A DNA stretch of 64,000 bases, from the NCBI RefSeq assembly GCF_017377655.1, contig NZ_JAFREL010000064.1, positions 1 through 64,000 on the forward strand, read 5' to 3'. The first letter of the stretch is position 1; the number at the start of each line of letters is the position of its first letter. Positions 35,326-54,801 of the stretch are shown here, piece after piece. Under the pieces are notes generated by a model. That model was given only the letters and a program-made list of their open reading frames with translations. It did no database searches and was not told where the DNA came from. Origin of the DNA: Candidatus Enterococcus ferrettii. GTDB lineage: Bacteria > Bacillota > Bacilli > Lactobacillales > Enterococcaceae. Made by a program: the position numbers and the translations under genes.

Positions 35326-35358
35326 ATATCATTTGACATTTTTTGTGTCATTTGATAT
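35326..35358. promoter_or_regulatory. Palindromic operator 1 (SorC-type) overlapping the promoter
   Basis: An imperfect 33-bp palindrome with arms ATATCA..TGACA and TGTCA..TGATAT. It covers the -35 box and spacer of the promoter at 35333-35361, so a bound regulator would interfere directly with RNA polymerase. Confidence 0.65.
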
Positions 35359-35361
35359 ATT
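35333..35361 (+). promoter_or_regulatory. Sigma-70 promoter of glucitol-type operon A
   Basis: TTGACA (35333-35338) and TATATT (35356-35361) are spaced by 17 nt, nearly consensus. It drives the EIIC gene at 35450 with a leader of about 80 nt. It is embedded in palindrome 1 and followed by palindrome 2. Confidence 0.75.
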
Positions 35362-35371
35362 GTTCTCGAAA

Positions 35372-35404
35372 GTATCATTCGACACGATTTGTGTCATATG
35401 ATAC
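35372..35404. promoter_or_regulatory. Palindromic operator 2 (SorC-type) downstream of the promoter
   Basis: A 33-bp palindrome with arms GTATCAT..GACAC and GTGTC..ATGATAC. Its centre is 46 bp from that of operator 1, and it begins about 10 nt after the -10 box, near the expected transcription start. A further half-site (GTGTCATAT) lies at 35419-35427. Confidence 0.7.
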
Positions 35405-35449
35405 GAAAACTCGCGCGAGTGTCATATTCCAAATTTTAGGAGGAAGGTT

Positions 35450-35983
35450 ATGGATTTTTTAGTAAAACTATCAGACGGTTTCATCGGAATGTTTCAAGCA
35501 GGAGCTGACACATTTGTGGGGTTCCTTACCGGAATTATCCCACTACTCATTACGTTAATTTTATTTGTAAACGCTTTGATCAAGATCATCGGTGAGGAAA
35601 GAGTTTTTGGCTTCATGCAAGCATGTACTAAGTTTATCGTTTTACGTTACACCTTGATTCCATTTCTGGCATGTTTCTTTTTAACTAATCCGATGTGTTA
35701 TACCTTTGGACGATTCTTAAAGGAAGAACACAAGGCAGCTTACTATGACTCAACCGTGTCAATGGTTCACCCAATTGTTGGTCTTTTTCCTCATGCGAAT
35801 GCCGCGGAATTATTTGTTTATTTAGGAGTTGCTGCTGGTTTTGAAAAGGTGGGGAACCAAAGTGAACTGGCCCTTCGTTATCTCTTAGCTGGTTTTGTCA
35901 TCATCTTGATTCGAGGAATTGTTACTGAACGAATTGCTGCTATTTTATCTAGTCGTGACAAAAAGAAAGCTGTCAGTGCTTAA
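35450..35983 (+). CDS. srlA: PTS glucitol-family EIIC (operon A)
   Basis: A 177-residue membrane protein of the SrlA family, with the family N-terminus (LVKLSDGFIGMFQAGADT) and IGEERVFGF near residue 46. It is first in an operon with EIIBC, two dehydrogenases, GutM, a SAF-domain oxidoreductase, EIIA and SorC. It is closer in sequence to the copy at 51723 than to the sorbitol copy at 21922 (for example both have VHPI/VHPV and LFPHANA/LFPYANA segments), so operons A and B probably carry related substrates distinct from sorbitol. Confidence 0.93.
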   Translation: MDFLVKLSDGFIGMFQAGADTFVGFLTGIIPLLITLILFVNALIKIIGEERVFGFMQACTKFIVLRYTLIPFLACFFLTNPMCYTFGRFLKEEHKAAYYDSTVSMVHPIVGLFPHANAAELFVYLGVAAGFEKVGNQSELALRYLLAGFVIILIRGIVTERIAAILSSRDKKKAVSA

Positions 35984-36000
35984 CGAATGGAGGGAAAAGA

Positions 36001-37023
36001 ATGAGTAAAACAGTAATTGTTCATAAAGGAAAAGGTGGATGGGGTGGGCCATTAACCTTAGTTCCAGATGCCAAAAAAAGATACGTCATTAGTGTAACTG
36101 GTGGAGGAATTCATCCAGTAGCAGAAAAAATTGCCCGATTAACAGGGACAACGGCGGTTGATGCGTTTAAAAATCCAGTAGAGAAAGAAGAAACCTTAGC
36201 TGCAGTAATCGACTGTGGTGGGACGGCTCGCTGTGGTACGTACCCACGGATGCGTATACCAACAGTGAATGTGAAGCTGCAGGCACCTTCTGGACCATTA
36301 GCGAAATTCATGACGGAAGATATTTTTGTTTCAGGAACAACAGTAGATGATTTGGAATTAGTTAATGGGAATTCCAGCAGTTTAGAGGAAACCGTTGTTC
36401 AAGAGGTAAAGGAAGAACCCATTGTTAGAGATATGGAAGAATCGTCACAGGAAACCGCTGCGACAACCCCGGAAGAAAGTTATGAAAGTAAAAAAGGATT
36501 CATTGGTCTGATCGATAAAATTGGCCGAGCCGCTGGGAGCTTTATCAATATTATGTATCAGGCGGGACGTGAGACGATTGAAACGGTTATGACGAATATT
36601 TTACCGTTTATGGCCTTTGTCGCTACCTTAATCGGGATCATCAATTATACCGGTATCGGTGATTTGATCGCAAAAGTCTTGTCACCGTTAGCTGGAAGTC
36701 TGATTGGCTTGGTAATTTTAGGCTTAATTACCAGCCTGCCATTTCTGTCGCCGTTATTGGCACCAGGAGCCGTTATTGCATCAGTGATCGGGTTGCTAAT
36801 CGGTACAGAAATTGCAAACGGAACCATTCCAGCCCATTATGCACTACCAGCATTATTCGCTATCAATTCACAGGTTGGCTGTGACTTTGCACCAGTAGGT
36901 ATGACTCTTGGCGAGGCTGATCCGGCAACGATTTCCTCTGGTGTTCCATCCATTCTTTTTTCACGGGTGTTAACCGGCCCATTGGCAGTTGTGGTTGCTT
37001 ACTTCATGTCATTCGGACTGTAA
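36001..37023 (+). CDS. srlE: PTS glucitol-family EIIBC (operon A)
   Basis: A 340-residue EIIBC. The EIIB phospho-cysteine is in AVIDCGGTARCG near residue 74. A Glu-rich linker spans about residues 122-160, and the C-terminal membrane domain carries FLSPLLAPGAVI and [20 protein letters not shown]. The start follows GGAGGG. It passes phosphate from the EIIA at 40807 to the incoming polyol. It is unusual that three non-PTS genes separate it from its EIIA. Confidence 0.93.
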   Translation: MSKTVIVHKGKGGWGGPLTLVPDAKKRYVISVTGGGIHPVAEKIARLTGTTAVDAFKNPVEKEETLAAVIDCGGTARCGTYPRMRIPTVNVKLQAPSGPLAKFMTEDIFVSGTTVDDLELVNGNSSSLEETVVQEVKEEPIVRDMEESSQETAATTPEESYESKKGFIGLIDKIGRAAGSFINIMYQAGRETIETVMTNILPFMAFVATLIGIINYTGIGDLIAKVLSPLAGSLIGLVILGLITSLPFLSPLLAPGAVIASVIGLLIGTEIANGTIPAHYALPALFAINSQVGCDFAPVGMTLGEADPATISSGVPSILFSRVLTGPLAVVVAYFMSFGL

Positions 37024-37048
37024 AAATAATTTAAGAGGTGAAGGGTAA

Positions 37049-38116
37049 ATGATTCCTGAAAAAATTAAGTTTGGCTGCTTACTCAAAAAAGGAGTGGCCG
37101 AGGTGAAAGAAATGAAATTGCCAGAGCTCAAGGAAGATGAGCTTCTTGTTAAGCAAGAAGCCTGCAACATCTGCACAACTGATTACCAGCAATGGCTGGG
37201 ATTGCGTGAGCATCAAGGCTATCCTATGGCGGGTGGACATGAATGTTCAGGAACAGTGATTGCTAAAGGAACTGCTGTTGGTGACACTTATGAAGTTGGC
37301 GATAAAGTCAGCGTCGTCTATGACTATTGCGGTTATTGTGATGAATGTAAACACGGCGAGGTAACCAGCTGCGAAAACATCAAGCAGTTCGGTAAAAATT
37401 ACTCAGAGGACTATTATGGTATCTTCGGTTTTGCCAACTACTTTATTCGCAAAGCAAAAAGCTTCGTGAAAATGAATCCCGAATTGCCACCATCAGAAGC
37501 AGCTTTTGTCGAGCCATTATCATCAGTGATTCAAAACATGAAGAAGCTGCGGGTGAAATCCGGTACCGATACCGTAATTGTAATCGGTGCAGGAACCATG
37601 GGTCTGCTAAATGCAGAAACAGCACGGGCCTTTGGTGCTAGGGTAATTGTTTCTGAATTAATGGAGAAGAAGCTGCAGGTAGCACAAGCGATGGGTTTTG
37701 AAACCATCAATCCTAAAGAAGTAGATGCGGTTTCTAAGGTGAAGGAATTAACCAATGGTAAGGGAGCCGATATCGTAGTGGTAGCCGTAGGTGCTACTGC
37801 AGCAAATAACCAAGCCTTGGAAATGGTGAAACCGAAAGACGGCAAAATATCCATGTATGCTGCCGGATATCCAGCACCGGAAATGGATGTTGATTCTAAC
37901 AAGATTCATTACATGCGCTTAGAATTAATCGGAACCTATGGATCAACATTGGAAGACTTCTCTGATGCAGCTGAAATGCTGAACACTGGACGGGTGAATG
38001 TTTCCAAATTGATAGAAACGCACATCCCATTGGCTGAAATTCAAGCAGCTTTCCAAGCAGCAAGTACCCCAGGCAACTTCCGAGTGTCTGTCACATTAAA
38101 TGAGGATAGGAGTTAA
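37049..38116 (+). CDS. Zinc-dependent alcohol/polyol dehydrogenase (MDR family)
   Basis: A 355-residue medium-chain dehydrogenase with catalytic zinc residues in CNICTTD and GGHECSG, an intact structural zinc lobe (CGYCDECKHGEVTSC) and the NAD motif GAGTMGLLNAE near residue 182. The catalytic His of GHE is kept. The sequence EPLSSVIQNMKKL near residue 153 follows the usual MDR layout. It differs clearly from the polyol-phosphate dehydrogenases at 8570 and 14659. The operon context suggests oxidation of a phosphorylated polyol; substrate unknown. Confidence 0.9.
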   Translation: MIPEKIKFGCLLKKGVAEVKEMKLPELKEDELLVKQEACNICTTDYQQWLGLREHQGYPMAGGHECSGTVIAKGTAVGDTYEVGDKVSVVYDYCGYCDECKHGEVTSCENIKQFGKNYSEDYYGIFGFANYFIRKAKSFVKMNPELPPSEAAFVEPLSSVIQNMKKLRVKSGTDTVIVIGAGTMGLLNAETARAFGARVIVSELMEKKLQVAQAMGFETINPKEVDAVSKVKELTNGKGADIVVVAVGATAANNQALEMVKPKDGKISMYAAGYPAPEMDVDSNKIHYMRLELIGTYGSTLEDFSDAAEMLNTGRVNVSKLIETHIPLAEIQAAFQAASTPGNFRVSVTLNEDRS

Positions 38117-38120
38117 GAAA

Positions 38121-39137
38121 ATGGCAAAATGTTTAGCAATCGCAGACCTTTTCATCGATCAGGAAATGATGGAAAAGGGACTCACCCTGTTAGAAGAAAA
38201 AGGAATTACTGTTGTTGTCAAGAATTGGCAGCATGAGGATTTGGAGGCTCTGCAAAAGGATAATATTACGCTGGAAAAACAAGGCAGTGAAGCTGTTGAT
38301 TTGCCTGAGGAATTACTAGCGGACATTGAAGAATATGACTATATCATTACGCAATTTGCTCCGATTGGCAAAAAAGTTATCGACCAAGCAAAAAATCTGA
38401 AATTTATCGGTGTTTTGCGAGCAGGGATTGAAAACGTCAACCGTAGCTATGCTGAAGCAAAAGGAATCACAGTCTTTAATACACCTGGTCGCAGTGAAAC
38501 CAGTGTTTCAGAATACGCTGTCGGATTGATGCTTTCAGAAATCCGTAATATTGCTCGAGCAGACCGCAAGCTTCGTAATGGCGAGTGGGAAAAATACTAT
38601 CCCAACGGTGTATTGGCACCAGAATTGAAAGAGTCGGTAGTTGGTTTGGTCGGCTATGGGGCAATTGGACAGAAGGTAGCCAATTTAGTTCGGCCCTTTG
38701 GCGGCAAAATTATCTTTTTTGACGACTATTTCACTGGGGATACAACAGATACTCAAGTTTCCTTAGAAGAATTAGTCACTCAAGCCGACATTATTTCCAT
38801 GCACTACCGATTGACGCCAGAAACCAAGAATATGTTGAATCGCGAGCACTTCAAAAAGATGAAGTCTACTGCTGTAGTTATTAACAGTGCTCGTTCAGGG
38901 CTAATCAATGAACAAGATTTAATTGAAGCCCTGCAAAACAAAGAAATTACTGGAGCAGCAGTAGATGTCTTTGAACAAGAACCGCTGCCAGCTGACCATC
39001 CTTACTTAACTCTGGAAAATGTAACTATCACGCCCCATATCGCAGGATCAACGATTGGCAATTTCGCCAATTCACCAAATATTTTGGCAAACCGTATGGT
39101 GAATGAGTACCTGCCAACATCTGTAACGGTAAACTAA
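38121..39137 (+). CDS. D-isomer-specific 2-hydroxyacid dehydrogenase (PGDH family, operon A)
   Basis: A 338-residue dehydrogenase with the nucleotide motif GLVGYGAIGQKV near residue 180, catalytic Arg in NSARSGLINEQ, Glu in FEQEPLPADHP and His in TPHIAGST. I use the ATG at 38121 after AGGAG; the longer frame starts inside the previous gene. It is related to the gene at 17523. In operon A it accompanies an alcohol dehydrogenase and a SAF-domain oxidoreductase, so the pathway probably passes through an oxidised, acid-level intermediate. This is inference. Confidence 0.9.
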   Translation: MAKCLAIADLFIDQEMMEKGLTLLEEKGITVVVKNWQHEDLEALQKDNITLEKQGSEAVDLPEELLADIEEYDYIITQFAPIGKKVIDQAKNLKFIGVLRAGIENVNRSYAEAKGITVFNTPGRSETSVSEYAVGLMLSEIRNIARADRKLRNGEWEKYYPNGVLAPELKESVVGLVGYGAIGQKVANLVRPFGGKIIFFDDYFTGDTTDTQVSLEELVTQADIISMHYRLTPETKNMLNREHFKKMKSTAVVINSARSGLINEQDLIEALQNKEITGAAVDVFEQEPLPADHPYLTLENVTITPHIAGSTIGNFANSPNILANRMVNEYLPTSVTVN

Positions 39138-39158
39138 CGGATGAGATAGGAGAAAACG

Positions 39159-39554
39159 ATGATCGATCTTCGCTTGGTATTCATAATTATCGCTTTATTA
39201 CTGTTAAATCTCGCTACCTCAATGAGTCATGCCAGTTATTATCGCAAGACACTGCGAAGCATGATGGAACGAAATGAAGAAGGCTTTCTTGGGATAGGTA
39301 TGGCCAACAGCAAAGTAAAGGCACGAATGATTGCCCTGATACTGGCAGATACGAACGGCGTAATTACTGAATGCCGAGTGATGTCAGGTCTAACGGTTTT
39401 CGCTAAATTTAAAACCTGCCATGAGCTAACGGGCTGCAGTATTCAAAACCTGTCAGCGGAAATTCAAACGAATAAATACAAAACATCAATCGAAGAAGCT
39501 ATTAAACTGATTCAAATTGAAATGGATAATAAAAAATCGGAGGGAACAATATGA
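39159..39554 (+). CDS. gutM: GutM-family protein (operon A)
   Basis: A 131-residue GutM homologue with an N-terminal membrane helix (about residues 4-22) and a cytoplasmic domain containing KARMIALILADTNGVITEC and SGLTVFAKFK. It is shorter than the 160-residue GutM of the sorbitol operon. Its stop overlaps the ATG of the next gene (ATGA). Operon A lacks a PRD regulator, so GutM must act here without GutR, perhaps with the SorC protein or on the EII complex itself. Confidence 0.85.
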   Translation: MIDLRLVFIIIALLLLNLATSMSHASYYRKTLRSMMERNEEGFLGIGMANSKVKARMIALILADTNGVITECRVMSGLTVFAKFKTCHELTGCSIQNLSAEIQTNKYKTSIEEAIKLIQIEMDNKKSEGTI

Positions 39555-40804
39555 CACTATATGGAGAACTGTTAAAACGTCAACAAGAAGGAAACCCAAT
39601 TCGCGTTGGAGTAATCGGCGCTGGGCAAATGGGTCGCGGCATGATCGCACAAATCGCTACGATACCTGGCATGGTCGTAACTGGAGTCAGCGATCTGTTC
39701 GTGGAAAATGCTGAGAAAGCTAAAGAAGCTTACTTAGCTTCTTCAGAAGTAAAAAATGATTTGCTAGTATCGGCAGACTTTAAGGAGATCATTCACTCTG
39801 ACTTAAACGAAGTCATTGTTGATGCAACCGGTGTTCCTGAGGTCGGTGCTAAAATTGCGCTTGAAACCTTAATTGCCAAAAAACATTTGGTCCTATTAAA
39901 TGTTGAAATCGATATTACCATTGGACCATTGATGCATAAGCTATACGACTCAGCCGGTCTCGTTTATACCGGCTCTGATGGAGATGAACCCGCAGCGACG
40001 ACTGAACTATTTGAATTTGCTAAATCAATGGGCATGGAAGTCTTGGTTGCCGGAAAGGGCAAAAACAATAAGCTGAAAACGACTGCCAATCCTGATACAG
40101 CCGCTGAAGAAGCAGCCGGTAAGCATATGGCAGCTCACATGCTGGCAGCCTTCCAGGATGGAACGAAAACAATGGCCGAAATGAACCTGCTCTCTAATGC
40201 TATTGGTTACATTCCAGATAAAGTTGGGATGCATGGCTTATCTGGTGATGTGGATTCAGTGATTAAGGATCTTGATTTGAAGGAAAAGGGCGGCGTCCTT
40301 TCACAATACGGGGTAGTAGAATATGTGGATGGCTTAGCACCTGGTGTCTTTGTCATCGTTAAGGGACAAAATGCTGATGTGACTGGTGAATTGAACTACT
40401 TGATGAAAAAAGGCGACAGAGACCATCATATCTTGTACCGCCCATATCATTTAGCCAGCTTAGAAACACCCATTACTATTGCAAAAGCGGTTCTGCAGCA
40501 GGATCATGCCATTATTCCATTGGGGGCACCGATTTCAGAAACTGTAGCAGTCACTAAAAAAGCTATCAAAGCAGGTGAAAAATTAGACGGTATCGGCGGT
40601 TATTGTGTTCGAGGTGTCTTAGAAACACATACCGAAATGGAAGCGCAAGGACATATTCCAATCGGTTTAATTTCTGGCGAGGTTGTGGCTAAACGTGACA
40701 TTGAGGCTGAGACTTTCATCACAGAAGATGATGTGGAATTGGATCAAAGTACCTCAGTGTGGCAATTACGCAAGCTGCAGGACGATACTTTTAAAGGAGC
40801 TTAA
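39551..40804 (+). CDS. SAF-domain NAD(P)-dependent oxidoreductase (operon A)
   Basis: A 417-residue protein. The N-terminal Rossmann domain has GVIGAGQMGRGMIAQ near residues 19-33 and VDATGVPEVGAKIA near residue 96, as in homoserine-dehydrogenase-like and MocA-like enzymes. The middle contains YTGSDGDEPAATTELFEF and VAGKGKNNKL. The C-terminal part (from about residue 330) resembles a SAF domain. A paralogue at 50016 is about four-fifths identical by eye. The substrate is not known to me. Association with a glucitol-type PTS suggests action on a phosphorylated sugar or sugar acid. Confidence 0.85.
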   Translation: MTLYGELLKRQQEGNPIRVGVIGAGQMGRGMIAQIATIPGMVVTGVSDLFVENAEKAKEAYLASSEVKNDLLVSADFKEIIHSDLNEVIVDATGVPEVGAKIALETLIAKKHLVLLNVEIDITIGPLMHKLYDSAGLVYTGSDGDEPAATTELFEFAKSMGMEVLVAGKGKNNKLKTTANPDTAAEEAAGKHMAAHMLAAFQDGTKTMAEMNLLSNAIGYIPDKVGMHGLSGDVDSVIKDLDLKEKGGVLSQYGVVEYVDGLAPGVFVIVKGQNADVTGELNYLMKKGDRDHHILYRPYHLASLETPITIAKAVLQQDHAIIPLGAPISETVAVTKKAIKAGEKLDGIGGYCVRGVLETHTEMEAQGHIPIGLISGEVVAKRDIEAETFITEDDVELDQSTSVWQLRKLQDDTFKGA

Positions 40805-40806
40805 GC

Positions 40807-41163
40807 ATGCATCAAACAAAAATTACTGAAATTGGATCGATTGTCGAAGATTTTGCTGAAGAATTTCTCCTAGTACTGTTTGGACCGGAAGCGACGGCAG
40901 AATTGCGAGATATTTGTGTCATTCACGAGACGGATCAGCGCCCGAAAGATGCCTTGAAAAAAGACGGCAAGCTGACCATTGGCTCACAGGAATACACTAT
41001 TTTGGAGATAGGCAGCGAAGCCAATCCTAATTATCAAGCATTAGGACATATTTCGATTTATTTTAGAGATGGCGCAAACAATGAAATTCTGCCGGGTGCA
41101 ATTTTGGTTGAACCGAAAGTATTTCCTGAGCTGAAGGTGGGAGACGACATTACTTTTAATTAG
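40807..41163 (+). CDS. srlB: PTS glucitol-family EIIA (operon A)
   Basis: A 118-residue EIIA that keeps the His after the conserved Cys (CVIHETDQ near residue 43), unlike the sorbitol EIIA at 23524, and also keeps LGHISIYF near residue 81. It starts 2 nt after the oxidoreductase stop with AAAGGAG as ribosome site. It should phosphorylate the EIIBC at 36001. It is very similar to the EIIA of operon B (53375). Confidence 0.93.
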   Translation: MHQTKITEIGSIVEDFAEEFLLVLFGPEATAELRDICVIHETDQRPKDALKKDGKLTIGSQEYTILEIGSEANPNYQALGHISIYFRDGANNEILPGAILVEPKVFPELKVGDDITFN

Positions 41164-41205
41164 CTGTTGGGGAAATCCTGTATCTCATATAAGGAGAAAC
41201 TAGCG

Positions 41206-42150
41206 ATGGATATAATAGAAGAAAAAAATATTGTCAAAATGGCCTGCTTGTATTATGAGGAGGGATTGACTCAGGCTCAGATCGCCAAGCAGGTAGGTGT
41301 TTCTCGTTCACTGGTTTCTAAATTACTGCTGGATGCCCGCGAAGAAGGTATTGTAGAAATTACCATTAACAGCAAAAACGCCTATACCTCGATGCTGGAA
41401 AGAAAGCTGGAAAAGAAATATAGTTTGGCAGCGGCCGTTATCATTGATTCCAAAGATCTTACGATTGAAGAAATCGAAAAAATGACTGCAAAAGCTGCTG
41501 CTTACTATTTAAATAAACAGATGAAGCAGGCTAAAAGTGTCGGGATTTCTTGGGGCAAGGCAATTAGAAGAATGGTGGACTATTTTCCTTACAGCAATCA
41601 TTCCTCCCTTTCAGTTGTACCGCTAATCGGCGGCATGGGAGATGATTTCGTCAACATCCACTCCAATCAGTTAAGTCATGATTTGGCTAAAAAGGTTCGC
41701 GGCAAGTCAAAATATCTCTATGCACCGGCGCTGCTAGCAAACGAACAGCTGGCAGATGCTTTGAAAAGCAACCAAGCGATTGAATCAGTATTAAGCGATG
41801 GTTTAAACGTAGATATCGCAGTTGTTGGAATCGGCAGTCCTTACAAGCGAAGTACAATGGAAGAAATCGGCTATCTTTCCCAAGAAGATATCGAAGAACT
41901 CCGCAGCAGCCAAATCGTTGGTGATATCAATTCTCGTTTTTACAATGTACGGGGAGAAGAGGCCGCCTGCAAAATTAATCGAAGCATTATCGGAGTGAAC
42001 TTGCCTGCTATTAAGCAGGTTCCTCAGGTATTAACGATTGCCGCTGATGACCAGCGGATAAAGGCAATTAAAGTAGCCGTAGAAAATCAGCTAGTAAACG
42101 TACTAGTAACTACCGATGGGATTGCTTCAGAATTATTGGCTGACGAATAA
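41206..42150 (+). CDS. SorC-family transcriptional regulator (copy 2, operon A)
   Basis: A 314-residue SorC paralogue with HTH LTQAQIAKQVGVSRSLVSK and effector-domain motifs SWGKAIRRM and LIGGMGDDFVNIHSNQL. I start at the ATG 41206 after AAGGAG; the longer frame lacks a good site. It is the last gene of operon A, so the operon has a SorC protein at each end (the other divergent at 34281). The two may respond to different intermediates or compete for the same operators. A terminator follows. Confidence 0.92.
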   Translation: MDIIEEKNIVKMACLYYEEGLTQAQIAKQVGVSRSLVSKLLLDAREEGIVEITINSKNAYTSMLERKLEKKYSLAAAVIIDSKDLTIEEIEKMTAKAAAYYLNKQMKQAKSVGISWGKAIRRMVDYFPYSNHSSLSVVPLIGGMGDDFVNIHSNQLSHDLAKKVRGKSKYLYAPALLANEQLADALKSNQAIESVLSDGLNVDIAVVGIGSPYKRSTMEEIGYLSQEDIEELRSSQIVGDINSRFYNVRGEEAACKINRSIIGVNLPAIKQVPQVLTIAADDQRIKAIKVAVENQLVNVLVTTDGIASELLADE

Positions 42151-45883: not shown

Positions 45884-45895
45884 AAAGGGGGAGTT

Positions 45896-46663: not shown

Positions 46664-47483
46664 GGTAGAAAAGTCAGCGGAGCAACCCTCTGTCTTAACA
46701 AAAAGAGACTTGGATTATGCTCATTTCAGATGGTGGCTATTAGCCGAAGTTAGTGTGAATTATGAACGAATGCAGGGCATTGCTTACTGTGCAAGTATGG
46801 CTCCAGTCCTGCGGAAAATTTATAAGGACAAGGAAGAAAGTGAATTAAAGGCGGCTCTTAAACAACACTTGGCCTTTTTCAATACGGAGGCCACTTGGGG
46901 AGCATTGATCTTTGGAAGTGTTATTGCGATGGAGGAACAGCGGGCCAGTGACGAAAGCATTCCGGCTGAATTAATTACGAGCTACAAAACAGGGCTGATG
47001 GGAACATTGGCCGGCATCGGTGACACGATTGACTTAGCCACTATTTATACCTTGGTATCAGCCGCTTGTGCCAGTTTGGCAATTGATGGCAATATCTTAG
47101 CTCCCTTTCTGATGATTGTATTAGGTACCTTAATGTATTTTGAAGGCTATTTCTTTAATCGCTTTGGGTATAAATATGGAAAGACTTCGGTTCGAAATAT
47201 CTTGGCCTCCGGGCTGCTGCAGGATGTAGTTGAAGGAGCGAATATTGTCGGACTATTCATGATTGGCTGTTTGTCGGCGGGATTGATCACTCTGAGTACT
47301 ACCTTTACTCTAGGTTCCTTCAATTTGCAGGAAACCTTGGATACCATTTTGCCAGGGATTTTACCCATTTCTATGTTTTTCCTCGTTTACTTTTTAATGA
47401 CCAAGAGTAAATTGTCCGCCTCTAAAATTGTTTTGATTTTAATTGTCGGTTCGGTTATCGGCTCGCTGCTGGGAATTTTTTAG
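46656..47483 (+). CDS. PTS mannose-family EIID
   Basis: A 275-residue EIID. The N-terminal region has the family pattern (SVNYERMQGIAYCASMAPVL near residue 30). GLMGTLAGIGDTID near residue 113 and the hydrophobic C-terminal helices are also typical. The GTG start overlaps the EIIC stop by 8 nt with GAGGAGATG upstream. It completes the four-subunit mannose-type permease. An esterase gene follows after 10 nt. Confidence 0.94.
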   Translation: MDKVEKSAEQPSVLTKRDLDYAHFRWWLLAEVSVNYERMQGIAYCASMAPVLRKIYKDKEESELKAALKQHLAFFNTEATWGALIFGSVIAMEEQRASDESIPAELITSYKTGLMGTLAGIGDTIDLATIYTLVSAACASLAIDGNILAPFLMIVLGTLMYFEGYFFNRFGYKYGKTSVRNILASGLLQDVVEGANIVGLFMIGCLSAGLITLSTTFTLGSFNLQETLDTILPGILPISMFFLVYFLMTKSKLSASKIVLILIVGSVIGSLLGIF

Positions 47484-47493
47484 GAGTGAAGCC

Positions 47494-48252
47494 ATGGGGA
47501 TTTTAAAAATAACCAGTGAGTCTAAAGCACTAAAACGGGATCAGAGTTTTTTACTTGTTCTGCCAAAAAGGGAGCAGGAAAGCTTAACGGTGTGTTACCT
47601 GCTGCATGGCGGTGGCGATGATTACACTAAATGGCTGCGGCGAACCCCCTTGGAGCAATATGCCAATATGTATCACGTGGCTTTTGTTTTGCCAGAGGCA
47701 GGAATGTCCTACTACTGTGATCGTGAGGACCAGCGATTTTCAACATACATTTTTTCTGAGCTGCCCGCTTTTCTAGAGCAAAATTTTCAGTTTGCGGCGG
47801 GACAGGCGTTGATTGCCGGATTATCGATGGGCGGTTACGGCAGCTTTAAACAGGTGTTGACAAAGCCAACGCAGTATTTGGCTGCTGGCAGCTTCTCCGG
47901 CGATTTAGATATTGCACAAAGTCGTTTGTCAGAGGACTTGTTTACCGCTGCCTGGAACGAGGAACGCTATCAACTGATCTTTGGTGATAAAGATCAGTTC
48001 GACCGTAGTGAAGAAAATCTCTATTATTTACTTGCACAAAAGCAGGAGCTGCCGTTCCTGTATATGTCTTGTGGTTTGAGCGATCCACTATTGGAGAACA
48101 ATCAAGCCTTTTACGAAGCGGCTTGTAAACAAACCCCGATTACCTTTGAAACCTGGGCAGGAGCACATGACTGGCAATTTTGGGATGAAAGTCTTCGGCG
48201 CTTTCTGCAATTGGCGGCAGAACAGGGCTATGTAAAAGAGGTGGGAAATTGA
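47494..48252 (+). CDS. Esterase D / tributyrin-esterase-like alpha/beta hydrolase
   Basis: A 252-residue alpha/beta hydrolase. The oxyanion segment YLLHGGGDDYTKW is near residue 33, the nucleophile Ser in AGLSMGGYGSF near residue 112, and the catalytic His in GAHDWQFWDE near residue 226. There is no signal peptide, so it acts in the cytoplasm. The ATG at 47494 lies after TAGGAG; an earlier frame overlaps EIID. Placed straight after a mannose-type PTS, it may remove an acyl group from the imported sugar phosphate. That role is inference. Confidence 0.88.
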   Translation: MGILKITSESKALKRDQSFLLVLPKREQESLTVCYLLHGGGDDYTKWLRRTPLEQYANMYHVAFVLPEAGMSYYCDREDQRFSTYIFSELPAFLEQNFQFAAGQALIAGLSMGGYGSFKQVLTKPTQYLAAGSFSGDLDIAQSRLSEDLFTAAWNEERYQLIFGDKDQFDRSEENLYYLLAQKQELPFLYMSCGLSDPLLENNQAFYEAACKQTPITFETWAGAHDWQFWDESLRRFLQLAAEQGYVKEVGN

Positions 48253-48593
48253 TTGTCTTAGACTATTACTATTATTCACCAATCTTGGAAAAGGATACTT
48301 TTTGCGGCATACAATATGACGATCTGCAGAAGGTAACGAAGTGTCTGTGCATTATTCCGGGAAAGAGTATGACCGTGGAAGATGTTTTATGTGACTATCG
48401 AGAGAAAATAAAAAAAGAAAATGTGCTGCTGATTGTACCAGATGCAACAGAATATAACTATGAGGAGCCTTATTTCCGTAAACGTTTTGAACGATCAATT
48501 ACTGAAACGATGACGCTCCTGTTGCATTTACTCAAGGCTCCTTCAGAACTGCCGCGGGAAGTTAAAATTAGAAAGGATGAAAAAGATGTCTGA
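48249..48593 (+). CDS. Hypothetical protein in mannose-type PTS operon, 114 aa
   Basis: A 114-residue soluble protein starting at a TTG that overlaps the esterase stop, with GAGGTGGG upstream, so translation is probably coupled. The first half (YYYYSPILEKDTFCGIQYDD) resembles the N-terminal strand region of esterase-D-like proteins (it also has CLCIIPG and LLIVPDA strands), as if it were a truncated relative of the preceding enzyme lacking the Ser-His machinery. I do not recognise it otherwise. Confidence 0.65.
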   Translation: MIVLDYYYYSPILEKDTFCGIQYDDLQKVTKCLCIIPGKSMTVEDVLCDYREKIKKENVLLIVPDATEYNYEEPYFRKRFERSITETMTLLLHLLKAPSELPREVKIRKDEKDV

Positions 48594-49386
48594 CTGGCTA
48601 GGATTACAAGGGAAAGTCTATATTGTCACTGGCGGGTCTTCAGGTATTGGTAAAGCCATTGTTGATGAACTGCTGGCAGCTGGTGCCCAAGTGATAAATG
48701 CAGATATTCACTCCAGTGTTCAACTGCATCCGCGATTACATTTTATTGAGACGGATGTTTCCTCAAAAACAGCGGTGGAACACTTAATAGCCACTACTTT
48801 GAAAAAAGCGGGAACGATTGATGGCATTGTAAACAATGCAGGGATCAATCTTCCTAGACTGCTGGCGGATCAAAAACATCCTCATGGGCGGTATGAGCTG
48901 ACAGAAGAGATTTTTGATCAGCTGCTTGCCATTAATTTGAAAAGTGTCTATCTGTTAAGTCAGGCTGCTGCCCGAATTTTCTATCAAACGGGTACCGGCG
49001 TAGTAATTAATATTTCTTCTGAAGCCGGTTTAGAAGGATCAGAAGGTCAAAGTATTTATGCGGCAACTAAGGCAGCGATCAACAGCTTTACTCGTTCTTG
49101 GGCTAAAGAACTGGGAAAATTTAACATTCGGGTTGTTGGGGTAGCACCGGGAATTATGGAAGAAACCGGCTTGCGCACGCTGGAGTATGAAGAAGCTTTA
49201 GCTTACACGCGTGGGATTACGGTGGATGCACTGAGAAAAAACTATTCGAAGGTTTCGACGATTCCCTTAGGCAGAAGTGGACGTCTTGAGGAAGTTGCAA
49301 ACGTTGTAAGCTTCTTATTGTCGGATCGGGCCAGCTATATAAGTGGGGTTACGATGAATGTCGCTGGTGGGAAAACACGAGGATAG
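48586..49386 (+). CDS. srlD: Sorbitol-6-phosphate 2-dehydrogenase-like SDR (second copy)
   Basis: A 266-residue short-chain dehydrogenase, the same length as the sorbitol-operon enzyme at 18767 and strongly similar to it. Cofactor motif TGGSSGIGKAI is near residue 15, NNAGIN near residue 83, and catalytic residues lie in NISSEAGLEGSEG and SIYAATKAA. I use the ATG at 48586; the longer frame overlaps the previous gene. As last gene of a LevR-controlled mannose-type PTS operon it probably oxidises a hexitol 6-phosphate or related polyol phosphate taken up by that permease. Confidence 0.9.
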   Translation: MSDWLGLQGKVYIVTGGSSGIGKAIVDELLAAGAQVINADIHSSVQLHPRLHFIETDVSSKTAVEHLIATTLKKAGTIDGIVNNAGINLPRLLADQKHPHGRYELTEEIFDQLLAINLKSVYLLSQAAARIFYQTGTGVVINISSEAGLEGSEGQSIYAATKAAINSFTRSWAKELGKFNIRVVGVAPGIMEETGLRTLEYEEALAYTRGITVDALRKNYSKVSTIPLGRSGRLEEVANVVSFLLSDRASYISGVTMNVAGGKTRG

Positions 49387-49475: not shown

Positions 49476-49915
49476 GATATAAAAATGACAAAAGTAACCG
49501 ATTCTCATCGTAATTGACTAATTAACTCATCGTTTTTTAACGAAGAATCAGTAATAAATAGTCAATGTGTAAACGCTCACAATCTAAGCTGTAAGGAAGA
49601 AAGAGGCGGGCAAAAAACACAGGCTAATTTTCGAACGAATTCTAGTTTTCTTATCACTGGAGTCAAAGCAGCATAATTGAAGGTAAGTGAAAGAGTGATC
49701 AATGTTTCGGGAGAAGCTAAAAATAGTACTCTTTATAGTTTCGAATACTTTTAATGTCCGTTATTTATATTAGTGATTGATTTTCGTTTTATATAAAAAT
49801 AGAGTGGTAATCAGCAGCTGGAAAAGTATATATATACGGTTATATCACCTTTTCTATAAGGGTTTTCTCGGTTGTAACATATGTTCCAATCGATATAAAA
49901 AGTTCAAAAAGATAT
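49476..49915. other. AT-rich intergenic region with nested inverted repeat, no gene
   Basis: About 440 nt without a plausible gene. It contains a nested inverted repeat (ATTGACTA 49513-49520 with TAGTCAAT 49559-49566, enclosing TCGTT-TTTT-AACGA at 49530-49543), a cre site at 49567 and several AT-rich stretches. The length suggests extended regulation of operon B. Confidence 0.6.
49567..49581 (+). promoter_or_regulatory. cre site, distal, operon B
   Basis: GTGTAAACGCTCACA matches the cre consensus at 14 of 15 positions (first base differs). It lies about 360 nt upstream of the operon B promoter, so it may serve an unrecognised upstream promoter or act by looping. Confidence 0.5.
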
Positions 49916-49967: not shown

Positions 49968-49992
49968 CATATGACATTTAAGTTGTCATATG
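49968..49992. promoter_or_regulatory. SorC-type palindromic operator of operon B
   Basis: CATATGACA (49968-49976) and TGTCATATG (49984-49992) form a 25-bp palindrome just after the expected transcription start. The same CATATGACA half-site occurs in the operators at 35326-35427, pointing to shared or related SorC regulators acting as roadblock repressors. Confidence 0.7.
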
Positions 49993-50015
49993 ACAACAAT
50001 ATGGAGGGGTTCACA

Positions 50016-51266
50016 ATGACACTTTATGGAAAGCTTTTGGAGAGAGAAAGAAACAATGACCCAATTAAAGTCGGAGTAATTGGTGCAGGACAAATGGGAT
50101 TTGGAATGATTGCACAAATTTCGACTATTCCTGGTATGGCAGTGACTGGAGTCAGCGACATCAATATTGATGGCGCTAAGCGAGCAGCGGATGCCTATAA
50201 TGCAAGTGCGGAGAAGAAAGTTGACATCTTGACCAGTTCAGATTTTAAAGAAATTATTCATTCAGATAAAGTAGAAGTCATCGTTGATGCAACGGGTGTA
50301 CCAGAAGTCGGCGCTCAAATTTCCTTAGAGACATTGTTAGCTAAAAAACATTTAGTATTACTGAATGTAGAAGTGGATATTACCATTGGCCCTCTAATGA
50401 AGAAAATGTATGATTCAGCGAACTTGATTTATACCGGATCTGATGGCGATGAGCCAGCAGCAACGACTGAATTATTCGAATTTGCGAAAAGTATGGGGAT
50501 GGAAGTCTTAGTTGCTGGTAAAGGGAAGAACAACAAATTAAAGGTTGGTGCCAATCCCGATACTGCCCAAGCTGAAGCAGATGAGAAAAACATGTCCAGC
50601 CATATGCTGGCAGCCTTCCAGGATGGAACCAAGACCATGGCAGAAATGAACTTATTGTCCAATGCGATCGGCTTTGTTCCTGACAAAGTAGGAATGCATG
50701 GAATCAGCGGCGATGTAGATTCAGTAATTAAGGATCTAGATACGAAGGAAAATGGCGGTATCTTAGATAAATATGGTGTTGTAGAATACGTAGATGGTTT
50801 AGCACCAGGAGTATTTGTCATTGTAAAAGGCCAAAACGAAGGCGTACAGCACGAGTTAAGCTACTTAATGAAGAAGGGCGATCGTGATCATCATATCCTG
50901 TACCGTCCATACCATTTAGCCAGCTTAGAAACACCAATCACTATTGCTAAGGCAGTCTTAAACCACGATCATGCGATTGTTCCATTGGGGGCACCAATCT
51001 CTGAAACAGTAGCAGTAGCGAAGAAAGACATCAAAAAAGGGGAAAAAATCGATGGCATCGGCGGCTATTGTGTCCGCGGTGTTCTGGAAACCCACGAAGA
51101 CATGGCTAAAAATGGCAATGTGCCAATCGGTTTAGTTGGTGGTTCATCTGTTGCCAAACGCGACATTAAGGATGGAACCTTCTTAACCTATGATGATATT
51201 GAAATCGACGAATCAACTACGGTTTATCGTTTACGTAAATTACAAGATTCTACGTTTGGCGAGTAA
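50016..51266 (+). CDS. SAF-domain NAD(P)-dependent oxidoreductase (operon B)
   Basis: A 416-residue paralogue of the protein at 39551, alike over the full length, with Rossmann motif GVIGAGQMGFGMIAQ, YTGSDGDEPAATTELFEF and a C-terminal SAF-like part. I use the ATG at 50016 after ATGGAGGGG; an upstream frame would include the operator. Here it is the first gene of the operon and is followed by a hairpin, so it may be made in excess over the transport genes. That suggests it is the key enzyme of the pathway. Its reaction is not known to me. Confidence 0.86.
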   Translation: MTLYGKLLERERNNDPIKVGVIGAGQMGFGMIAQISTIPGMAVTGVSDINIDGAKRAADAYNASAEKKVDILTSSDFKEIIHSDKVEVIVDATGVPEVGAQISLETLLAKKHLVLLNVEVDITIGPLMKKMYDSANLIYTGSDGDEPAATTELFEFAKSMGMEVLVAGKGKNNKLKVGANPDTAQAEADEKNMSSHMLAAFQDGTKTMAEMNLLSNAIGFVPDKVGMHGISGDVDSVIKDLDTKENGGILDKYGVVEYVDGLAPGVFVIVKGQNEGVQHELSYLMKKGDRDHHILYRPYHLASLETPITIAKAVLNHDHAIVPLGAPISETVAVAKKDIKKGEKIDGIGGYCVRGVLETHEDMAKNGNVPIGLVGGSSVAKRDIKDGTFLTYDDIEIDESTTVYRLRKLQDSTFGE

Positions 51267-51277
51267 GCAACAACAAT

Positions 51278-51310
51278 AAAGCAGATGGGGGGACGCCCTT
51301 GTCTGCTTTT
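51278..51310 (+). terminator. Intra-operon hairpin between oxidoreductase and gutM
   Basis: AAAGCAGA (51278-51285) pairs with TCTGCTTT (51302-51309), extended by GU and GC pairs in the G-rich and C-rich arms, and is followed by TT. It probably acts as a partial terminator or an mRNA 3'-end stabiliser for the first gene. Confidence 0.6.
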
Positions 51311-51326
51311 GGAAAGGAAGAGCCTT

Positions 51327-51707
51327 ATGGGTGGATTTGTTATACTTTTAGCTATATTGATGATGCTGCAAAGTGTTTTTAGTGTTGTTCAAGTCAAATA
51401 CTATCAAAGCTTTATCCGTAAAATTACGACTGAACAGGCCGGCACAGACTATGATTTTTATACAGAAGTAGTGAAGGGCCGAATGCTGCGGACGATCGTA
51501 GCGGTCGTAATCGACAAAAACGGAAAAGTCGTTCAGTGCTATTGCTGCAGTGGGTTAACGATCTTTGCCAAGTTCAAAGAGGACCCCGCTTACCAAGGTA
51601 TGCACTTAGAAGAATTTTACAGCAAGAAGCTGCAAGAAAATCAATTATCGAAGATTGAAGAAGCATTGTCAAAAATCTACTCACGGAAATTGGAAGCGGT
51701 TACCTAA
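51327..51707 (+). CDS. gutM: GutM-family protein (operon B)
   Basis: A 126-residue GutM homologue with an N-terminal membrane helix (about residues 2-20) and a cytoplasmic part with GRMLRTIVAVVIDKNGKVVQ and SGLTIFAKFKEDP, matching the copy at 39159. I use the ATG at 51327 after GGAAAGGAAG. It directly precedes EIIC. As in operon A there is no PRD regulator in the operon. Confidence 0.85.
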   Translation: MGGFVILLAILMMLQSVFSVVQVKYYQSFIRKITTEQAGTDYDFYTEVVKGRMLRTIVAVVIDKNGKVVQCYCCSGLTIFAKFKEDPAYQGMHLEEFYSKKLQENQLSKIEEALSKIYSRKLEAVT

Positions 51708-51722
51708 AAGGAGGACATTACT

Positions 51723-52256
51723 ATGAAATACATTGAATGGGCAGGAAAAAACTTTATTGGTTTGTTTGAAGCAGGCGGCGAACAATTTATGGGCTATATG
51801 ACCGGGATTGTTCCACTATTAATTGTACTATTAACCTTTACTTATTCAGTTATTGCATTTATCGGGGAAGAACGTGTTGACCGAGCAATCCGCTATTGTT
51901 CTAAATATATGATCTTGCGCTATTCATTGATGCCGATTTTAGCTGTTTTAATGCTGACCAACCCAATGGCTTATACCTTTGGGAAATTCGTTAAGGAAGA
52001 AGAAAAACCAGCATTTTATGATGCAGCAGTATCCTTTGTTCATCCCGTTACCGGCTTATTCCCTTACGCTAATGCAGGTGAATTATTTGTTTACCTTGGA
52101 ATTGCCAATGGGGTAATGGAAGCCGGCTACAGCCAATCAAGCTTAGCCGTTCGTTACTTCTTAGTTGGGGTAGTGGTTATCTTGATGCGGGGAATTGTCA
52201 CTGAGCGTTTGACCAAGTTTATGATGGCCAAAGAAGCTAAAAAAGCGCAGGCATAA
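51723..52256 (+). CDS. srlA: PTS glucitol-family EIIC (operon B)
   Basis: A 177-residue membrane protein, the same length as the operon A copy at 35450 and similar to it throughout (IGEERV, TNPMAYTFGKFVKEEEKPAFYD, RGIVTERLT). It follows gutM after an AAAGGAGG ribosome site. With EIIBC and EIIA downstream it forms a full glucitol-type EII complex. Confidence 0.94.
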   Translation: MKYIEWAGKNFIGLFEAGGEQFMGYMTGIVPLLIVLLTFTYSVIAFIGEERVDRAIRYCSKYMILRYSLMPILAVLMLTNPMAYTFGKFVKEEEKPAFYDAAVSFVHPVTGLFPYANAGELFVYLGIANGVMEAGYSQSSLAVRYFLVGVVVILMRGIVTERLTKFMMAKEAKKAQA

Positions 52257-52271
52257 GAAGGAGGAAGCGGC

Positions 52272-53345
52272 ATGTATAAAACAGTCTTTGTAAAACCGGG
52301 AAATAAAGGTTGGGGTGTTGGATTAACCTTAGTACCATCAGAGAAAAAGAATAAAGTTGTCTCAGTTACCGGCGGCGGCATCCATCCGGTAGCGCAGCAG
52401 ATCGCAAACCTAACAGGCTGTGAAGCTTGTGACGGCTTTAAAAATGCAATTCCCGAGGATGAAACACTTTGTGCAGTTATCGACTGCGGTGGAACAGCGC
52501 GGATCGGGGTTTATCCGATGAAACGTATCCCAACTGTGGATATTTTACCGTCCTCACCATCAGGACCTTTAGCAAAACATATTACTGAAGATATCTTCGT
52601 TTCTGGTGTACGCCCAGAAGATGTAGCCTTAGTAGAAAATGCAGACTTAGAAGACCGCCAAATGGCAGGTATCGACCATGCCCATGCAACGGGGGCAGAC
52701 TCTGCAGCAGCAACCGAAGCAATTATCACTAAGCAAGACGAAGGACGCGAATCAGAAGAAGAGTTCCGGGAAAGATATTCGAAAATCAAAGAAGAACACA
52801 AGCAAGAAGTAGCAAAAAAAGACAGCTTCTTAGTTAGCTTCTCTCGGGGAATCGGGAGTATTATGGGAACCTTCTACCAATCTGGTCGTGACGCAGTGGA
52901 CATGCTATTGAAAAATATCATTCCATTTATGGCCTTTATCAGTATGATGGTAGGGATTATTAACTACACAGGTGTCGGCGACTGGCTGGCAAATGTCTTG
53001 TCTCCACTAGCAGGCTCACTGCCAGGAATGATCGCCTTGTCGCTAATTTGTACGATTCCGATTTTGTCGCCAATCTTAGGCCCAGGTGCGGTAATTTCAC
53101 AGGTAATCGGGGTGCTGATTGGTACACAGATTGCAAATGGCTCTATTCCAGTACAGTATGCATTGCCTGCCCTGTTTGCAATTAATGGACATGCTGGTTG
53201 TGACTTCATTCCGGTTGGTTTATCATTAGGAGAGGCGAAACCTGAAACCGTAGCCATCGGTGTTCCAGCAATTTTATATGGCCGGATGTTAACTGGATTT
53301 ACTGCAGTAATCCTAGCTTGGCTGGCAAGTTTCGGTATGTATTAA
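52272..53345 (+). CDS. srlE: PTS glucitol-family EIIBC (operon B)
   Basis: A 357-residue EIIBC with phospho-cysteine in AVIDCGGTARIG near residue 76. The second Cys of the usual TARCG is Ile here. A long acidic and Ala-rich linker (about residues 123-180) is larger than in the paralogues, and the membrane domain has LSPILGPGAVI and [20 protein letters not shown]. The start follows AAGGAGGA. The extra linker length is the main difference from operon A. Confidence 0.94.
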   Translation: MYKTVFVKPGNKGWGVGLTLVPSEKKNKVVSVTGGGIHPVAQQIANLTGCEACDGFKNAIPEDETLCAVIDCGGTARIGVYPMKRIPTVDILPSSPSGPLAKHITEDIFVSGVRPEDVALVENADLEDRQMAGIDHAHATGADSAAATEAIITKQDEGRESEEEFRERYSKIKEEHKQEVAKKDSFLVSFSRGIGSIMGTFYQSGRDAVDMLLKNIIPFMAFISMMVGIINYTGVGDWLANVLSPLAGSLPGMIALSLICTIPILSPILGPGAVISQVIGVLIGTQIANGSIPVQYALPALFAINGHAGCDFIPVGLSLGEAKPETVAIGVPAILYGRMLTGFTAVILAWLASFGMY

Positions 53346-53374
53346 AAAGAGAATGAATGGGAGCGAATAACTAA

Positions 53375-53728
53375 ATGGTAAAAACGAAGATTATAGAAAT
53401 TGGCAGCATGGTACCAGCTTTTGAAGAAGAACAGTTAATTATTCTTTTTGGTCCAAAAGCAACGGCTGAATTAAGAGATATCTGTTTGATTCATGACTTT
53501 GAAGATACACCAAAGGATGCTTTAAAAGTTGGAGGCAAAATAAAATTCGGAGATCAAGAATTTACAATTGATGAAGTTGGCTCTCAGGCGAACGCAAATT
53601 TTGAAGAATTAGGTCATATTTCCATCTACTTCCGCAACGAAGTCGGGGATGTTCTACCAGGCGCAATCATTGTAAGCCCTGGCGGATTTCCAAAATTTGA
53701 TGTTGGCGATACAATTGAAGTATTGTAA
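53375..53728 (+). CDS. srlB: PTS glucitol-family EIIA (operon B)
   Basis: A 117-residue EIIA with the conserved His after Cys (CLIHDFED near residue 43) and LGHISIYF near residue 81. It is very similar to the operon A EIIA, so the two may exchange between systems. It ends the transport part of operon B and is followed by a terminator that separates it from the SorC gene. Confidence 0.94.
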   Translation: MVKTKIIEIGSMVPAFEEEQLIILFGPKATAELRDICLIHDFEDTPKDALKVGGKIKFGDQEFTIDEVGSQANANFEELGHISIYFRNEVGDVLPGAIIVSPGGFPKFDVGDTIEVL

Positions 53729-53738
53729 TTAAACGCGA

Positions 53739-53770
53739 CCTCCCTTACACTCTAAGGGAGGCTTTTTTTT
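53739..53770 (+). terminator. Intrinsic terminator of operon B
   Basis: CCTCCCTTA (53739-53747) pairs with TAAGGGAGG (53753-53761) followed by eight T. A second small hairpin (AAAAGCTT/AAGCTTTT, 53795-53813) lies between it and the SorC gene. Confidence 0.93.
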
Positions 53771-53832
53771 CAATATCCAGCTTCACAAAATAGGAAAAGC
53801 TTGCGAAGCTTTTACGGCGAGGGGCGTTTAGG

Positions 53833-54801
53833 ATGGAAAAGGGTAAAAATAATAATCGAGACTTAGTAAAAGTAGCAACCATGTACCATAAGGAAAACAT
53901 GAAGCAGTCGGACATTGCAAAGCGCTTAGGGATTTCACGATCATTGGTTTCCAAATATCTGATTGATGCAAAGAATCAAGGAATTGTGGAGATTTACATC
54001 AAAAGCGAAAGCGCTTACTCTGTTGAACTGGAGCTTCAATTGGAGCAGCTTTTCGGATTAACCAAGGCAGTGGTTCTAGATACCAGCACCCTGCGAGAAA
54101 ATGAAATCGAAAAAATCATTATCCAAACAGCGATTACCGCCTATAAAAGGGACATCGCCAAAGCTGAAAAGATCGGCTTGTCATGGGGGAAAATTTTACG
54201 TCGATTTGTTGATGAATATCCTTACGAAAATCATCCGGACGCGTGTATCATTCCTTTGATTGGGGGGATGGGTTCTGATTATGTCGATATCCATTCCAAT
54301 CAATTGGCCTACGATCTAGCCAGAAAGCTGCGAGCCAAGTGCAAATTCTTATACGCCCCGGCTTTGGTGGACAATCCGCTGATTAAGGACAATTTAATTA
54401 ACAATGTAGCCATCAAAGATGTACTGGAAGCCGGCAGAGATGTCGATATGGCAATTGTTGGTTTGGCTTCACCGTTTTCTGACAGCAACACTATGACCGA
54501 AATTGGGTATATCAATGAAGAAGATATTCGGATACTTGCTGATGCTCAGGTGGTTGGAGATATTAATTCCAAATTCTTTGATGCAGAAGGGAAAGAGGTT
54601 GTGTGTACGATTAACGAGAACGTCATTGGCGTTAGCTTGGAAAGTATTCGCAATATTCCTAAAGTCGCGACTATTTGTTACGAAGATACCAAGAAGGAAA
54701 CGTTATATGTGGCGATGAAATCTAAGGTCTTCAACTGTGTGACCGTGACCGACGCATTAGCAGAGTATTTGATTAATCGGATACAGCAAGAAGGAAGTTA
54801 A
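53833..54801 (+). CDS. SorC-family transcriptional regulator (copy 3, operon B)
   Basis: A 322-residue SorC paralogue with HTH MKQSDIAKRLGISRSLVSK and effector-domain motifs SWGKILRRF and LIGGMGSDYVDIHSNQL. It follows operon B after a strong terminator, so it is expressed at a low read-through level or from its own weak promoter. No clear promoter was found in the 60-nt gap. The ribosome site is weak (GAGGGG, distant). It is the likely reader of the palindrome at 49968. A terminator follows. Confidence 0.92.
   Translation: MEKGKNNNRDLVKVATMYHKENMKQSDIAKRLGISRSLVSKYLIDAKNQGIVEIYIKSESAYSVELELQLEQLFGLTKAVVLDTSTLRENEIEKIIIQTAITAYKRDIAKAEKIGLSWGKILRRFVDEYPYENHPDACIIPLIGGMGSDYVDIHSNQLAYDLARKLRAKCKFLYAPALVDNPLIKDNLINNVAIKDVLEAGRDVDMAIVGLASPFSDSNTMTEIGYINEEDIRILADAQVVGDINSKFFDAEGKEVVCTINENVIGVSLESIRNIPKVATICYEDTKKETLYVAMKSKVFNCVTVTDALAEYLINRIQQEGS

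Follow-up and report, generated by a model that had tools for sequence, protein, structure and literature searches.

DXR-II-family enzymes in two glucitol-type phosphotransferase operons of Candidatus Enterococcus ferrettii and a proposed route of 2-C-methyl-D-erythritol use

Which substrate is handled by operons that combine a glucitol-type phosphotransferase system (PTS) with an oxidoreductase bearing a SAF domain? Two such operons, A (35450-42150) and B (50016-54801), lie in a 64,000-nucleotide stretch of Candidatus Enterococcus ferrettii (positions 1 to 64,000 of contig NZ_JAFREL010000064.1, assembly GCF_017377655.1), referred to below as the window; the genome comprises 5.4 Mb in 157 contigs. 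By sequence, the SAF oxidoreductases belong to the characterised family DXR-II/DRL, whose substrate pair is 1-deoxyxylulose-5-phosphate (DXP) and 2-C-methyl-D-erythritol 4-phosphate (MEP). We consider it somewhat probable that the operons serve the use of 2-C-methyl-D-erythritol, by way of MEP and a DRL enzyme running in reverse to DXP, with acetyl-CoA and glyceraldehyde 3-phosphate as products.

Family membership of the SAF-domain enzymes

Both SAF enzymes, DRL_A and DRL_B, match the Pfam families DRL_cat (PF21135) and SAF (PF08666), giving a layout of Rossmann, DRL catalytic and SAF domains. Among solved structures, 3UPL and 3UPY (E 9e-83) alone are relatives at E<=0.001. 3UPY is the structure of Brucella abortus DXR-II, an alternative DXP reductoisomerase acting on the pair DXP/MEP (PMC3847144). 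Thr229, absolutely conserved in DXR-II, anchors fosmidomycin together with Lys191 and Lys193, and Arg320 lies at the dimer interface (PMC3847144). DRL_A and DRL_B each match the reference at 23 of 24 checked positions, these four included; the single differing position in both copies is 351, with Ile for Val. DRL_B is 82% identical to a protein of Listeria ivanovii, which is on the published list of DXR-II species (PMC3847144), and the window DRLs group with Listeria ivanovii in a tree that holds no DLO1 or DLO2 sequences as reference. The window enzymes have in common with DXR-II (3UPL, 3UPY; PMC3847144) the domain layout and the substrate-binding and dimer residues, and differ in carrying an NAD-type cofactor loop where the reference has an Arg-type loop, and in their glucitol-PTS context within a host genome that has no MEP pathway. 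The earlier note on this DNA had held that no substrate was known, and had named a characterised homologue with a known substrate as grounds for giving up its proposal; such a family exists, with DXP/MEP as its substrate pair, and its existence makes the case more specific.

Thr229 is missing from 6 of the 131 DRL proteins of the alignment (L050, L079, L080, L081, L110 and L113), and also from L225, L227 and L228; DRL proteins of this kind may catalyse another reaction. One of them, L113, sits in an operon with PTS and E1 genes.

Layout of the operons

All genes of operons A and B are open, with the expected Pfam domains, and the earlier note's operon A is extended by a divergent SorC gene:

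34281..35234, minus strand, SorC-family regulator, divergent from operon A
35450..35983, plus strand, operon A glucitol-type EIIC, PF03608 (EII-GUT)
36001..37023, plus strand, operon A glucitol-type EIIBC, PF03612/PF07663 (EIIBC-GUT_N/C)
37049..38116, plus strand, operon A zinc-type MDR dehydrogenase, PF08240/PF00107 (ADH_N/ADH_zinc_N)
38100..39137, plus strand, operon A 2-hydroxyacid (PGDH-type) dehydrogenase, PF02826 (2-Hacid_dh_C)
39159..39554, plus strand, operon A GutM, PF06923
39551..40804, plus strand, operon A DRL_A, DXR-II-family oxidoreductase with SAF domain, PF21135 and PF08666
40807..41163, plus strand, operon A glucitol-type EIIA, PF03829 (PTSIIA_gutA)
41167..42150, plus strand, operon A SorC-family regulator, PF04198 (Sugar-bind)
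50016..51266, plus strand, operon B DRL_B, DXR-II-family oxidoreductase with SAF domain, PF21135 and PF08666
51285..51707, plus strand, operon B GutM, PF06923
51723..52256, plus strand, operon B glucitol-type EIIC, PF03608
52272..53345, plus strand, operon B glucitol-type EIIBC, PF03612/PF07663, in the tree within a clade of DRL-linked transporters
53375..53728, plus strand, operon B glucitol-type EIIA, PF03829
53833..54801, plus strand, operon B SorC-family regulator, PF04198

The combination of glucitol-type PTS, GutM, SorC and SAF oxidoreductase described earlier for both operons is confirmed, as are the different gene orders (EIIC-EIIBC-MDR-PGDH-GutM-DRL-EIIA-SorC in A, DRL-GutM-EIIC-EIIBC-EIIA-SorC in B) and the two dehydrogenases added in A. 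Spacing within the operons is -17 to 29 bp, with the sole exception of 104 bp ahead of the operon B SorC gene. Two further descriptions had to be corrected: the SAF enzymes, called nearly identical, are 78% identical, and what had been taken for duplicated modules are related enzymes with different transporters (EIIC 54%, EIIBC 55%, EIIA 59%, GutM 29%), identities on which a recent duplication of a single module was rejected. A third DRL gene (L042) lies on contig C117 in operon C, of order DRL-GutM-EIIC-EIIBC-EIIA-SorC-SorC. Because its EIIBC is 83% identical to that of operon B and 56% to that of operon A, operons B and C are kin, and in A a related enzyme stands with a different transporter.

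The segment between the two window operons (42317-49386) encodes a sigma-54-type activator, a mannose-family PTS (IIA, IIB, IIC, IID), an esterase and a short-chain dehydrogenase. GutM (39159-39554 and 51285-51707) is retained in operons that have SorC as regulator. The operon A GutM begins with a long hydrophobic stretch. Both observations suit a putative role in the membrane or as an accessory of the PTS more than that of a simple activator that binds DNA.

An E1/E2 complex recurs beside DRL genes

DRL neighbourhoods were compared at 116 loci (L042 and L047-L161); merging of those with 97% identity or more left 110. The loci are not a random sample: 36 of the 44 DRL matches in the phylum were taken as wide stretches (two more are the window's own and six were left out), and the relatives in the set are the best 80 of 106. 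Some stretches end at contig ends, including control loci L184, L186 and L202, and contig C124 (L230) was left out. A DRL locus was counted as PTS-linked when at least two of EIIC, EIIBC, EIIA and GutM lay within 8 kb, and as E1+E2 when E2 plus E1a or E1b lay within 8 kb; this strict criterion superseded a loose count of 30/49 that included transketolase-like matches.

A glucitol-type PTS stands beside DRL at 49 of the 110 non-redundant loci, and E1 and E2 of a 2-oxoacid-dehydrogenase-like complex lie near 41, made up of 27/49 loci with PTS and 14/61 without. The pairing of DRL with E1+E2 occurs in Bacillota, Actinomycetota and Pseudomonadota, and at 24/110 loci E1a is directly 3' of DRL on the same strand. 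The typical gene order is SorC-GutM-EIIC-EIIBC-EIIA-DRL-E1a-E1b-E2-E3, at times continued by a small gene (cluster c104), which has no Pfam match and is, at a guess, HPr, and by EI. All 29 glucitol-EIIA matches not near DRL served as the control. Fifteen of them have EIIC, EIIBC and EIIA, and none of these 15 has E1+E2 (27/49 versus 0/15, Fisher p = 6e-5; Fisher values ignore shared ancestry). In a phylum survey of 398 genomes, DRL was found in 38 (E<=1e-20), glucitol EIIA in 34 (E<=1e-10) and both in 28 (counted by hand). L191 is the only control operon with E1a/E1b, and it has no E2; the DRL-PTS operon of the same genome (G174), L078, has no E1, an arrangement that may mirror the split seen in Enterococcus.

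In Enterococcus alishanensis (L083) DRL, SorC, E1a, E1b, E2, E3 and EIIA are consecutive, with GutM-EIIC-EIIBC divergent. The window's genome carries a SorC-E1a-E1b-E2-E3 operon on contig C81, the E1a of which is 85% identical to that of L083. Close E1a proteins (84-100% identical to L083's) were found in 13 of 16 genus genomes with DRL and in none of the 4 without. This complex has the E1a, E1b, E2 and E3 domains of pyruvate dehydrogenase (PDH) and acetoin dehydrogenase complexes. It differs from them in that the DRL-associated form stands beside DRL-PTS operons at 27 loci, and in that the C81 complex is apart from the housekeeping PDH on contig C98, whose E1a passes its model's cut-off; C81 E1a falls below both PDH E1a cut-offs (361 vs 393.85 and 276 vs 411.35 bits).

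A shared site and related regulators

The SorC encoded with the C81 complex shares 63% identity with the second SorC of operon C, and 58%, 64% and 54% with the SorC of the single-locus forms L083, L047 and L088, respectively; this group is only 29-34% identical to the SorC of A and B, the divergent SorC and the first SorC of C. Three sites were located upstream of operon B:

49875..49886, plus strand, palindromic site TAACATATGTTC 5' of operon B, also ahead of the E1-E2-E3 operon on C81
49917..49952, plus strand, promoter-like TTGACA-16-TATACT, its -35 overlapping a cre-like AGAAAGCGTTGACA (cre read by eye)
49983..49996, plus strand, 14-bp perfect palindrome TTGTCATATGACAA, candidate operator, partly conserved in related B operons

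The genome has five copies of the pattern TAACATATGTYM. Three of them precede the C81 operon, one precedes operon B (49875) and the fifth lies within a coding gene on C129. A control pattern (TAACATATGTYM read backwards) has three occurrences. A scan of 20 enterococcal stretches found the looser [TG][AG]ACATATGT in 16, one of which (L181) has it at a place not next to DRL; in the window it stands only before operon B. TTGTCATATGACAA has one exact site, and at up to 2 mismatches at least one site is found in 37/100 shuffles as well. The shared palindromic site and the related regulators point to a link of the C81 complex with operon B and, through the regulator, with operon C.

The cofactor loop

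After the second Rossmann strand an acidic residue usually favours NAD+ and Arg favours NADP+. The reference reads L-S-A-R-R there and both window DRLs read V-S-D, which predicts by the usual rule that the window enzymes are NAD-dependent. The residue is acidic at 62 of 63 loci with PTS and/or E1+E2 context, the exception being Asn in L078. Twelve rhizobial and related genomes hold 23 DRLs, of which 8 are STRR-type, 10 E1a-adjacent and 5 others. None of the 8 STRR-type DRLs has E1a in its 3.5-kb stretch, all 10 E1a-adjacent DRLs are acidic, and both kinds occur together in six of the 12 genomes. An additional functional DXR-II paralogue is present in each of Mesorhizobium loti and Ochrobactrum anthropi (PMC3847144).

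The proposed pathway

We infer the direction of the reaction, its substrate and products, and the roles of the regulators as follows. The glucitol-type EII would phosphorylate a terminal hydroxyl, so that 2-C-methyl-D-erythritol enters as MEP. DRL with NAD+ would then oxidise MEP to DXP, the DXR reaction backwards. The DXR equilibrium favours MEP. DXP has the form CH3-CO-CHOH-R and is an acetoin analogue, and a complex of thiamine-diphosphate E1 and lipoyl E2 (E1a-E1b-E2-E3, C81) would cleave it as acetoin dehydrogenase cleaves acetoin, passing the acetyl group to CoA and yielding acetyl-CoA, D-glyceraldehyde 3-phosphate and NADH. This last step would be effectively irreversible and would pull the DRL step. 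The SorC regulators would control the genes, perhaps with CcpA at the cre-like site. No intermediate other than DXP connects a DXR-II enzyme with a complex that transfers acetyl groups. The DXR step has been described as reversible (PMC13001223).

Several observations weigh against this pathway. Window operons A and B hold no E1 or E2 genes, the complex being on another contig; the close E1a is absent from 3 of the 16 DRL-bearing genus genomes, and for 22 of the 49 DRL loci with a PTS, E1+E2 is not found within 8 kb. By profile models the C81 proteins are nearest pyruvate dehydrogenase, and "acetoin-dehydrogenase-like" therefore refers to the proposed chemistry and not to the family; against the acetoin-dehydrogenase E2 model C81 E2 reaches only 94 of the 307 bits required, and the E1a of L059 passes the PDH cut-off (405 vs 393.85 bits). 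The operator pattern was picked after the promoters had been read, and a pattern scan of the window found no palindromic site before operon A. Of the 47 DRL loci that have neither PTS nor E1+E2 nearby, 24 likewise carry an acidic cofactor residue and 23 do not; the 24 include all 5 loci classed by an IspD-labelled neighbour, which speaks against an acidic residue as a marker of catabolism.

Alternative substrates and roles

The alternative that survives best, though we think it unlikely, is that the PTS imports a different branched polyol, such as apiitol or hamamelitol, and that the same rearrangement gives a pentulose- or hexulose-phosphate that enters central metabolism with no need of E1/E2. 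The PTS-linked loci without E1+E2 count in its favour, and it is most likely for operon A, whose divergent EIIBC clusters in the tree (100/99) with a contig C70 PTS that has no link to DRL. Against it, the recurring E1/E2 partner points to an acetyl-bearing product, and the shared site and related regulators suggest that the complex goes with operon B and, via the regulator, with operon C.

We put the odds that operons A and B have different substrates at about even. In the tree DRL_A itself falls together with Listeria ivanovii and with L047 and L083, two E1-linked DRLs (support 91, not starred). The MDR dehydrogenase of operon A has no solved relative at E<=1e-40, and the nearest solved structure to the operon's PGDH is 1wwk. 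This PGDH was found in 5 of 20 genus genomes, with stops counted in the matched stretch of 3 of the 5; it is open over 331-345 aa in relatives L169, L172 and L174, where its order with MDR and DRL is unchanged. With its divergent transporter and two extra dehydrogenases, operon A may serve another branched polyol; its DRL, an enzyme of the same kind, would act on the phosphate of a branched polyol imported by the PTS, which perhaps differs from that of operon B.

Slightly less likely again is an ordinary linear polyol-phosphate dehydrogenase that performs no rearrangement, with E1/E2/E3 as a second PDH for downstream flux. The PTS is of glucitol type, E1/E2 score nearest pyruvate-dehydrogenase models, and one relative (P0109) is annotated as sorbitol-6-phosphate 2-dehydrogenase; set against these are the 23 of 24 DXR-II positions retained, the housekeeping PDH already present on C98, and a true sorbitol operon in the genome with its own dehydrogenase. 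In that operon the gene at 18767 matches the sorbitol-6-phosphate dehydrogenase model NF004817 (455 bits, cut-off 304) and the gene at 19588 has PRD and Mga domains. Operons A and B share the EIIC, EIIBC, EIIA and GutM families with glucitol/sorbitol (gut/srl) operons and differ from them in lacking, by gene and domain scan, both a sorbitol-6-phosphate dehydrogenase and a PRD/GutR regulator, as the earlier note had observed. Their EIIBC also fall outside the separate clade that holds the window's sorbitol-operon EIIBC and comprises 9 of 13 non-DRL transporters. This separate clade and the sorbitol operon with its own dehydrogenase disfavour sorbitol as substrate. A Listeria operon of a SAF-domain protein, a SorC-type regulator, GutM and a glucitol PTS has been called a sorbitol operon (PMC11176438); it may be a DRL operon.

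That DRL is a normal DXR-II for isoprenoid synthesis (DXP to MEP), as family and residues would allow, is very improbable, because IspG/GcpE was found in 0/20 genus genomes (all available in the group; the same search was positive in 9 of 14 named control genomes) and HMG-CoA reductase is present in the genome; all three DRL copies, moreover, are located in PTS operons, and the loop residue is NAD-type.

Other DRL neighbourhoods

A trio of a class II aldolase, a TIM-family protein and a UPF0047 protein recurs near DRL at 8/110 loci (L042, on contig C117 at 13730-15801, L047, L076, L077, L085, L098, L104 and L157). The 172-aa neighbour at the third DRL locus, considered as RpiB, proved to be UPF0047, and the idea of an erythrulose-phosphate isomerase was dropped. 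At L054, L073, L107, L108, L109 and L111 DRL occurs without a PTS; its neighbours are an RpiR regulator and an FGGY sugar kinase, in many cases joined by an MDR dehydrogenase and a SIS protein, and this variant may use a different sugar. An FSA-type aldolase lies near 10/110 DRL loci. Hydroxyacetone has served as a starting material for making 1-deoxyxylulose with FSA (PMC7767278), and at the FSA-bearing loci DXP might alternatively be split to hydroxyacetone and glyceraldehyde 3-phosphate. The window operons have no FSA, and this would be a different exit from DXP.

Implications for the DXR-II family

The earlier proposal that the SAF enzyme acts on a polyol phosphate delivered by the PTS probably holds, by inference; a sugar-acid substrate finds no support. 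Its description of the pathway as uncharacterised stands: no account of a reverse-DXR methylerythritol pathway was found in the literature searched, most subscription journals lying outside its coverage, and the terms phosphotransferase, sorbitol, glucitol and catabol- do not appear in the text of PMC3847144. All the enzyme families involved have been described before, and the proposed pathway would be a new variation on the PTS polyol route.

We give just over an even chance to a wider reading: a widespread bacterial catabolism of 2-C-methyl-D-erythritol, perhaps also of other 2-methyltetrols, by PTS, NAD-dependent reverse DXR-II and oxidative acetyl transfer, in which the rhizobial-type NADPH DXR-II would be a branch of a largely catabolic family and DXR-II would be catabolic where the MEP pathway is absent. 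2-Methyltetrols are also formed by isoprene photooxidation. 2-C-Methyl-D-erythritol and its glucosides accumulate in plants (PMC11192765), and the pathway, if true, would give a fate to 2-C-methyl-D-erythritol from both sources.

DXR-II has been discussed as an isoprenoid enzyme and antibacterial target, with a patchy distribution that follows no clear pattern (PMC3847144; PMC13001223). Anaerococcus prevotii and Finegoldia magna have DXR-II and neither isoprenoid pathway, and the Finegoldia enzyme is active (PMC3847144); another Anaerococcus DRL (L085) is located in a glucitol-PTS operon. The MEP pathway is reported as incomplete in about half of Enterococcus species (PMC13001223), a report to which, at a guess, DRL genes scored as Dxr might contribute. 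A catabolic role, if true, would explain the patchy distribution of DXR-II, including its presence in Finegoldia without either isoprenoid pathway, and would warn against taking a DXR-II gene as proof of the MEP pathway.

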